Shown: positions 24,324 through 26,281 of the stretch, piece after piece
Layout: every line of letters begins with the position of its first letter
Numbering within the stretch: position 1 is the stretch's first letter
Source of the DNA: Polyangium mundeleinium
GTDB taxonomy: Bacteria > Myxococcota_A > Polyangia > Polyangiales > Polyangiaceae
Direction: 5' to 3'
Length of the DNA: 64,000 bases
Assembly (NCBI RefSeq): GCF_028369105.1
Contig: NZ_JAQNDO010000001.1
Span: 6,106,501 to 6,170,500 of the forward strand
Notes under the pieces: generated by a model
What the model saw: only the letters and a program-made list of their open reading frames with translations
Database searches by the model: none
Told to the model about the DNA's origin: nothing
Translations under genes and position numbers: made by a program

Positions 24324-24336
24324 TTCACCAGCGTGA
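24311..24336. repeat. 13-bp tandem duplication across two convergent stop codons
   Basis: TTCACCAGCGTGA occurs twice back to back (24311-24323 and 24324-24336). The first copy supplies the TGA of the methyltransferase; the second supplies the stop of the DUF2378 gene on the other strand. Confidence 0.9.
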
Positions 24337-24909
24337 GTGGATGATGAAGTCGGTCCCGGCGTCGTTGGCGACCGTGGCGGTGACGTTCGCGTCCACGTTG
24401 CTCACGAGCTTGTAGGCCACCCGGTAGACAGCGACGGTGAAGGCGGGGCCGAACAGGTCGCGCGTGAAGACCACGTCGGCCGAGCGTTCGCTCGTCTTCG
24501 TGTACTCGCGTTCGCCGAAGCTCACGGCCAGCGTATAGGCATAGGGGCCGTTGGCGCAGAGGGCCTGCGGGTTGCCCTGGCCGAACCGGGCGAGCATCTT
24601 GCCGACGGGGGACTCGAGCAGGGAGCTGAAGGCGTGCTCGCCGCAGCCCGTCATGATCTCGTTGCAGGTCAGGCCGAGGCTCGGCTCGTCGACCAGGCGC
24701 CGCGCGACCTTGAGCAGCGAGCTCACCGGGTACCAGAAGAACGAGCGGATGGTCTTGTCCCCCATCACCTGCGTGCGAATGGAGCCTACCTTCGCAGGCC
24801 CGTAGGCCTTGCCGAGGTGGTTCAGCGCGCCGTCGAGCACCATCCCGAGCATGTTGTCGGTGCTCGTTGCAAGCGCGATCCGTTTGTCAAGCATCTCCTT
24901 GGAGTCCAT
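24325..24909 (-). CDS. DUF2378/TIGR02265 family protein (myxobacterial paralogous family)
   Basis: A 194-residue soluble protein. The pattern LATSTDNMLGMVLDGALNHLG, SFFWYPVSSLLKVARRL, ESPVGKMLARFGQGNP, ALCANGPYAYTLAVSFGERE, VVFTRDLFGPAF and a final strand ending HSRW follows the DUF2378 consensus seen in large copy numbers in myxobacteria. The fold is similar to haem-NO-binding-like helical/beta proteins, but ligand and role are unknown. ATG 24909 was chosen; an in-frame start at 24978 would add 23 residues without family similarity. It ends 1 nt from the convergent methyltransferase. Confidence 0.8.
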   Translation of the reverse strand: MDSKEMLDKRIALATSTDNMLGMVLDGALNHLGKAYGPAKVGSIRTQVMGDKTIRSFFWYPVSSLLKVARRLVDEPSLGLTCNEIMTGCGEHAFSSLLESPVGKMLARFGQGNPQALCANGPYAYTLAVSFGEREYTKTSERSADVVFTRDLFGPAFTVAVYRVAYKLVSNVDANVTATVANDAGTDFIIHSRW

Positions 24910-25252
24910 CGCCCGTCGAGGTCCTTTCCCAGGAACGAAGTGCTCGCAGCTTACACGAACCCTCACGTCCGTCACCATCCCCGGATGGTGTCCTTCGTGC
25001 TCGTCCTTCGAGGTGCGCGAGCCGTTATCGGTTCTTCACGCCAAGCTCCCCATCCCCTCCGCCCCGTTCGCCATGGCACGTTCTCGCGGGCGCGTCCATA
25101 TCACGCGGCCTTTCGTTCGGTCGAGGCCGCCATAATCGTCGAGCCTTCCGCTTTTCCGCAAACGACAACAGGAATCTTCGGCGCTTGCCTTTGCGTTTCT
25201 GCCTGCACGTCCGGATTTCACTCGGCTGTCCGATCCGTGATAGCCTCCTTCC
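24910..25252. other. Divergent intergenic region before the selenoprotein gene
   Basis: This 343-nt stretch separates the DUF2378 start from ATG 25253. No convincing small ORF, RNA gene or repeat is visible. It must hold promoters for both genes. The bases before 25253 lack a purine-rich ribosome site, so the selenoprotein mRNA may be leaderless or poorly initiated. Confidence 0.5.
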
Positions 25253-26281
25253 ATGCCCCACATCCGGATCGTCGAGGCCCACGAAGCAGACGCCCCCCTG
25301 CGCGCCGTCTACGACGCCATGTTGTCCCGCCCGATCCCCGCGGTCTACCGCGCGCCGCATGGCGGCCCGGCGGGCATCATCCGCGCGCACAGCCTCGATC
25401 CCGATCTGCTCCGGATCACCTTCGCCGCGACCGGCACGTTCCACCGCGGCGACGGGCTCTCGTGGGCAGAGCGTGAGCTCATCGCCGCGTCCGCTTCGCG
25501 GACGAACCAGTGCTTTTACTGAACGTCAGCTCACGCAGAGTTTCTGCGTGTCGCTTCGGAGGATGAGGCTCTCGCCACGGACGTCGTGACGGGGACCGAC
25601 ATGCAGCGCGCTTCCCCGCGGCAGCGCGCCCTCAGCGGGTTCGCGGTCGTCATGACCGAGGCGCCGTGGTCCATCGACGCCGCGGATCTCGACCGCCTCC
25701 GCGCCGTGGGGGTCTCCGAGGACGGTGTCGAGCAAGCCATCTGCGTCGCGTCTTTCTTCAACTACTACACGCGCGTCGCGGACGGCACGGGCATCCTGTT
25801 CGATTACGAGTCGCCGCTCCCGCGCCTCTCCATCGACCTCGCGCGCGAGGCCCTCCCGCGGCCTCCGCCGAGCGACTGGAACCCCGCCGTCGACGGCTCC
25901 CGCGTCCCCGTGTTTCCGCGTCGCGCCTTTGCCCATGCGCTCCTCGAAGAGTGGCACGCGTATCACTTCGAACGTGATGTGCTGCTCTCCTGCCGCGAGC
26001 GCCGGATCCTCGCGCGCGCCGCCGCCGCCGAGCTCTGTGATGCCGGCGCCGTCGCTCGCCACGAGGACATGATCCCGCAAGATCCGCGCGAGCGCGCCCT
26101 CGCGGTGTACGCGACGAACCTCACCCGCACGCCTTGGGCCGTCGGCGCCGCCGAGGCCGCGACGCTCCGGGCGCACGGCCTCGACGATCCCGCGATCCTC
26201 GCGGCGATCACGCTCGTCGCGCACCAGAACACGTTTTCCCGCATGCACCATGGCCTCGCGGCGCTCGCGACGGCGGGATGA
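25253..26281 (+). CDS. Probable selenoprotein: AhpD/carboxymuconolactone-decarboxylase-fold peroxidase-like protein with in-frame TGA (Sec)
   Basis: Read straight through TGA 25520-25522, the frame gives 342 residues. The motif SRTNQCFY-U-TSAH places Cys 87, Sec 90 and His 94 exactly at the C-x2-C-x3-H redox motif of AhpD-like enzymes. Family sequence continues after the TGA in the same frame: HAEFLRVASEDEAL, then LRAVGVSEDGVEQAICVASFFNYYTRVADGTGI, as in peroxidase-related CMD proteins. A second CMD-like half (about 215-330) has RAAAAELCDAGAVARHED, with one Cys and no CxxC. A SECIS-like hairpin follows the TGA. Such proteins reduce peroxides with a thiol/selenol relay in the cytoplasm. The alternative, a Cys codon mutated to stop, would leave an 89-residue fragment. 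Selenocysteine genes (selA-D) are not in this window. Confidence 0.8.
25528..25555 (+). promoter_or_regulatory. Bacterial SECIS-like hairpin after the in-frame TGA
   Basis: A perfect 7-bp stem (CACGCAG 25532-25538 with CTGCGTG 25544-25550) closes the loop AGTTT, extended below by AGC/GCT (25528-25530, 25553-25555) across a small internal loop. The loop starts 16 nt after the TGA and has G at its second position followed by U, as expected of SelB-binding bacterial SECIS elements. Confidence 0.7.

Follow-up and report, generated by a model that had tools for sequence, protein, structure and literature searches.

A two-domain AhpD-like protein of Polyangium mundeleinium with a probable selenocysteine in its active site

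The soil myxobacterium Polyangium very probably decodes an apparent stop codon as selenocysteine (Sec) in the active site of an enzyme that handles peroxides or disulfides. The gene lies in the window, a stretch of 64,000 nucleotides of the P. mundeleinium genome, and positions given below are window positions unless the genome is named. We hold with good confidence that it encodes an AhpD-like selenoprotein of the TIGR01926 type, into which SelB and a hairpin in the message would insert Sec. Sec90 and Cys87 would then form the redox pair of the first domain, and the tandem domain behind it, which lacks the motif, would be a probable packing partner.

An in-frame TGA at the AhpD redox motif

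Reading the sequence confirmed the original prediction that the frame starting at ATG 25253 is interrupted up to 26281 by a single stop, TGA 25520-25522 (codon 90). With U at this codon, the surrounding peptide is NQCFYUTSAHAEFLRV, and the translation gives Cys87, U90, and His94 the C-x2-C-x3-H spacing that had been claimed, here as C-x2-U-x3-H, the TGA occupying the second of the two redox positions in the AhpD motif. The frame continues across the TGA far beyond chance. The TIGR01926 match (3.6e-41) has its best stretch at residues 43-177, which includes codon 90, and homologs are conserved downstream, in agreement with the family sequence predicted there. The same TGA is present in four other Polyangium assemblies, those of P. 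fumosum DSM 14668 and three Polyangium isolates, whose full-length proteins are 87-92% identical. Because these four assemblies also have TGA, a sequencing error at 25520 is excluded, and the TGC that had been named as a possible reading of this position was not borne out. The genome holds four CMD-family matches, and this gene is the only one of the four with a TGA. The features are listed in Table 1.

Table 1. Features of the gene, in window positions
Feature	Position	Strand	Description
Whole gene	25253..26281	+	342 residues with codon 90 TGA read as Sec; terminal TGA at 26279-26281
Codon 90, Sec decoding strongly supported	25520..25522	+	In-frame TGA; at homologous loci, TGA in 17/30 and a Cys codon in 13/30
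First domain, AhpD-like, TIGR01926 type	25253..25849	+	Residues 1-199; E75, C87, Y89, U90, H94
Hairpin of the SECIS model	25532..25550	+	8 bp with loop GTT, or 7 bp with loop AGTTT
Second domain, AhpD-type	25853..26278	+	Residues 201-342; lacks CxxC and the matching His; residues 239-334 match the first domain by profile

Selenocysteine machinery and codon 90 in homologs

The original prediction named a genome without selenocysteine genes as evidence against itself; selA, selB, selC, and selD were all found. The 13.25-Mb genome (two contigs) has selA and selD matches above their cut-offs, together with a selB match at genome positions 9171495-9172592 (minus strand) that adjoins a tRNA-Sec at 9172652-9172745 (plus strand), to which ARAGORN assigns the anticodon UCA. 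The ARAGORN call and the position beside selB matter because the Rfam threshold for tRNA-Sec is loose, with 5 of 14 control genomes passing it. One genome of the same genus, G152, has selA and lacks the homolog.

An order-wide search of 183 genomes found a homolog in 46 at 1e-3. Codon 90 was read at 30 loci, one per genome, and the remaining 16 genomes stand outside the counts. What homologs carry at this position had been posed as a check on the prediction: the aligned codon is TGA at 17 of the 30 loci and a Cys codon at 13, with conserved sequence downstream. A selA match was found in 16/17 CxxU genomes and in 2/13 CxxC genomes (G012 and G014), an association with a Fisher p of 1.5e-5 among genomes that are not independent. 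Among the CxxU genomes, the selA match is above the cut-off in 15 of 17, partial and below it in G004, and absent in G037. In a second set, selA was found in seven of eight CxxU genomes, the miss again being G037, and not in the one CxxC genome (G257). The CxxU gene of G037 (L038) has the same hairpin bases and lies on a 3.1-kb contig of a bin that is ~90% complete. Its occurrence where no selA match was found could reflect a binning error, missing sequence, or a recent arrival.

The hairpin downstream of the TGA

The hairpin was present with the stem, loop, spacing, and G that had been claimed. Its stem, CACGCAG paired with CTGCGTG, begins at the 10th base past the TGA and closes the loop AGTTT, which lies 16 nt past the TGA with G at its second position. 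As given in the available text of PMC13188914, SECIS elements have a loop of 3-9 nt, an upper stem of 4-16 bp, a spacing of 16-37 nt, G within the first two positions of the loop, and an MFE of at most -7.5. Checked by script, the hairpin satisfies the constraints stated in that text (8-bp stem, -10.8 kcal/mol, loop G, spacing 16-17), as do 9182 of 20000 synonymous recodings. Recoding the 57 bases past the TGA synonymously produced a qualifying hairpin of equal or greater stability in 4265 of 20000 cases, and dinucleotide shuffles folded as well in 4/200 (25520-25557), 14/200 (25523-25570), and 54/200 (25505-25580). Following the recoding control, we rejected the presence of the hairpin as proof. 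In this GC-rich DNA its presence is insignificant and makes weak evidence; the strong part of the argument is its conservation at synonymous sites.

This conservation was measured in seven sequences, from the five Polyangium genomes, G130, and G070. Where the amino acid is invariant, the codon is the same throughout in seven of seven cases at +3 to +9, compared with 29 of 95 elsewhere. This holds even though GCA makes up 12 of the 303 Ala codons, and CGT 17 of the 214 Arg codons, in the sample used with the SECIS script. The sequence ACGCAGAGTTTCTGCGT is found again in L055-L057, which belong to the other family, and in the single-domain genes L038, L059, and L062, and one C-G pair is swapped to G-C in L060 and L035. 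When the SECIS criteria were applied by script across homologs, 22/23 CxxU rows and 0/12 CxxC rows passed. L035 falls short at -5.8, L033 and L034 qualify only by virtue of a more distant downstream hairpin, and the CxxC locus L052 narrowly misses at -7.4; no comparable hairpin was found in L036. Covariation among 14 sequences gave no compensated pair. Adding L060 and L035 gave one, in two sequences, and 205 of 500 shuffles equaled this result in pair number, 22 of 500 in cells; this count leans towards structure because the two were added after their sequences had been seen. A search of the window against Rfam returned no match at the gathering score. Kept near letter-for-letter across distant proteins, the hairpin is a good probe for further members.

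Sec decoding at codon 90 is strongly supported by these comparative data, and two other readings of the TGA were weighed against it. One is a nonsense mutation that has left a pseudogene, or else two products: a fragment of 89 residues and, from a restart at GTG 25586, a separate downstream protein. Standard translation does stop at codon 89, an open reading frame runs from GTG 25586 to 26281, and the Sec machinery of the genome could serve other genes. However, a restart at 25586 would omit both U90 and His94, and the same TGA is found in 10/10 full-length two-domain copies. In addition, the TIGR01926 match spans the TGA, the TGA tracks selA, and purifying selection is seen on both sides of it, and we regard a nonsense mutation as very improbable. 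We also consider it very unlikely that the UGA is read through by near-cognate decoding with another amino acid, such as Trp or Cys. The inserted residue is not nameable from sequence alone, and the Cys homologs show that Cys would work, but this reading sits poorly with a complete Sec pathway, with the link between CxxU and selA, and with a SECIS-like hairpin conserved at synonymous sites. The selenoprotein interpretation is supported overall, and none of the observations named in advance as counting against it came true.

The first domain and its active site

The first domain matches Pfam CMD at residues 51-129 (4.4e-9) and scores 140.9 bits against TIGR01926, above the cut-off of 81.8. The TGA at the second CxxC position, with Cys homologs at the same place (17 CxxU, 13 CxxC), is likewise as expected for a member of this type. 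Solved structures related to the protein by sequence profile comparison include 3c1l, 6k40, and 2oyo. Fold relations were drawn from such comparisons rather than from an AlphaFold2 model, which was built on the five Polyangium sequences and was too poor for use (mean pLDDT of 42.3).

E75, C87, Y89, U90, and H94 are invariant in all seven aligned two-domain sequences, with Glu and His at relay spacing. In the text available from PMC3141380, the proton relay of PA0269 from Pseudomonas aeruginosa consists of Glu36, Cys48, Tyr50, Cys51, and His55, which correspond to these five residues with equal spacing. PA0269 and the AhpD of Mycobacterium tuberculosis are Cys enzymes, whereas the Polyangium protein would use Sec. 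PA0269 is also described there as a single-domain protein that forms a hexameric ring, in contrast to the two-domain protein here, and the peroxidase residues of AhpD are given as Cys130 and Cys133 (PMC3141380). From its sequence, the Polyangium protein is likely an AhpD-type selenol/thiol peroxidase or disulfide reductase.

The second domain

Profile comparison supports the prediction of a degenerate second domain. Residues 201-342 match TIGR01926 at 7.9e-11, below the cut-off, and gave no match in Pfam. Profile alignment relates them to the first domain (4.1e-12) and to 6k40 (7.9e-18), and none of the copies read has the CxxC or the matching His. These profile relations show the second domain as a tandem copy of the first that has lost the redox motif. 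Across ten Polyangium pairs, dN/dS is 0.01-0.23 upstream of the TGA, 0.15-0.97 for residues 91-200, and 0.13-0.27 for the second domain, which indicates purifying selection on the latter; the high values in some pairs at residues 91-200 arise because few synonymous changes fall there.

That the second domain has a chemistry of its own, at Cys262 or another site, and is not merely a structural partner seems to us rather unlikely. It is under purifying selection, and Cys262 is kept in 5/5 Polyangium copies and in G130, which speaks for such a role. However, Cys262 is absent in G070, L055, L056, and L057, and neither the CxxC nor the matching His occurs in the copies read. We propose the second domain instead as a probable ring partner. 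AhpD-like relatives are most often hexamers according to the available text of PMC3141380, and three two-domain chains would form the ring that is made in several of these relatives by six single-domain subunits.

Distribution of the two-domain form

Seven full-length two-domain copies were found in the order (the five Polyangium genomes, G130, and G070). When 377 genomes of the phylum were searched with a profile, 44 gave a match at 1e-15, and three further full-length copies emerged, in G426, G486, and G488. These three belong to another family of the same class and carry the TGA at CLYUT. The TGA is present in all ten full-length homologs found, from two families of one class, and each of the ten genomes has selA. 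The original prediction placed the novelty in this organism and its two-domain layout; the layout proved not to be confined to P. mundeleinium. A copy in G109 (L032/L058) has CLYUT and the same hairpin, and is cut off shortly past the Sec codon, where unrelated sequence takes over; this is a decayed or truncated gene. A candidate in G266 (match 1-284) was rejected, having proved to be a CxxU gene with one domain and a match that overran its stop.

A midpoint-rooted tree of the Sec-domain region, built from 40 rows and moderately supported, places all 11 two-domain rows together (87/85; recovered in 86% of bootstrap trees) and NF041238 next to them (92/90). In G263, two AhpD-like CxxU genes on different branches of the tree lie ~900 bases apart on the same strand (L059:1654-1701 and 2553-2600).

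Relation to known selenoproteins

AhpD-like or CMD selenoproteins with CxxU have been reported in PMC1088965, PMC2398784, and PMC9312934, and PMC13188914 lists both TIGR01926 and NF041238, to judge from the portions available of each. With the TIGR01926 type in print, the phenomenon itself is therefore known, and the caveat to this effect in the original prediction was right. In the available portions of PMC13188914, PMC1088965, and PMC2398784, TIGR01926 CxxU selenoproteins have Sec at the second CxxU position, as in the first domain here. The TIGR01926 model covers 178 positions, or one domain, whereas in the Polyangium protein a second, motif-less copy follows. In the open-access literature searched, which falls short of proving absence, we found no AhpD-type selenoprotein from Polyangium or other myxobacteria, and no description of an N-terminal Sec domain joined to a C-terminal AhpD-type domain without CxxC...H.

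NF041238, an AhpD-related (seleno)protein family, corresponds to hypothetical protein 1 of the Sargasso Sea set in the accessible part of PMC13188914. Like the Polyangium protein, its members have a CFYUT motif, ~350 residues, and one Sec, and the Sec domains of the two are related (2.5e-18). The Polyangium protein nevertheless scores 80.7 bits against the NF041238 cut-off of 175 and falls outside the family. Judged by sequence comparison, this nearest tandem family has the opposite domain order: its Sec domain stands at the C-terminus, preceded by a part in which CxxC lacks the matching His (10/10 loci read), whereas the Polyangium Sec domain is N-terminal. A circular permutation is unsupported, as the Polyangium second domain has no detectable profile match to the NF041238 N-terminal part. 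That part matches the Polyangium first domain weakly (6.7e-5, probability 64%). NF041238 is above its cut-off in 57/377 genomes of the phylum, with one internal TGA in each among the matches listed, and no match was found in the P. mundeleinium genome at 1e-20. Several genomes of the phylum have two to four NF041238 matches each.

Proposed mechanism and significance

Given the parts present, SelB carrying Sec-tRNA would bind the hairpin and insert Sec at codon 90. Alignment shows that the first domain, which would act as a redox enzyme, has the five residues of the AhpD proton relay in place, as Glu75, Cys87, Tyr89, Sec90, and His94. By analogy with AhpD, Sec90 would attack the peroxide or disulfide, and Cys87 would resolve the Se-S bond. 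Behind the choice of Sec90 as attacker stands the member of the AhpD Cys130/Cys133 pair that we take to be the attacking one.

More tentatively, the two-domain proteins may constitute a separate, obligately Sec group of tandem AhpD proteins in one class of Myxococcota, each with a Sec-active half and a catalytically dead structural half, in mirror order to NF041238. Obligately Sec here means that no Cys form occurs among the full-length two-domain copies found. If such a group exists, one phylum would hold two tandem Sec-AhpD designs, which would suggest that an asymmetric pair of a Sec and a non-Sec partner is advantageous. The pairing of a live with a dead site would offer a natural case for asking what is gained over a symmetric Cys ring. 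The case also documents probable Sec decoding in Polyangium and adds a group of two-domain selenoproteins with one live and one dead site. Standard gene calling would truncate the gene at codon 89 or place its start too far downstream, losing the active site.

Genomic neighborhood

The divergent gene at 24325-24978 is kept in the four Polyangium relatives (88-95%), as is a convergent acetyltransferase (87-95%) at varying downstream distance. Both neighbors were absent at the five other two-domain loci searched (L030, L031, and L055-L057). A mobile origin was considered and set aside; viral contigs were scanned and gave 12 matching stretches, of which none is a relative. Immediately 5' of the start codon, window 25232-25255 reads TGATAGCCTCC, which is identical in all five Polyangium sequences and is without a Shine-Dalgarno-like AGGAG. 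At G000:C1:6609326-6611367 (L068), a formate-dehydrogenase-like gene has a match that shifts frame near model position 134-141, which is either a frameshift or a sequence error.
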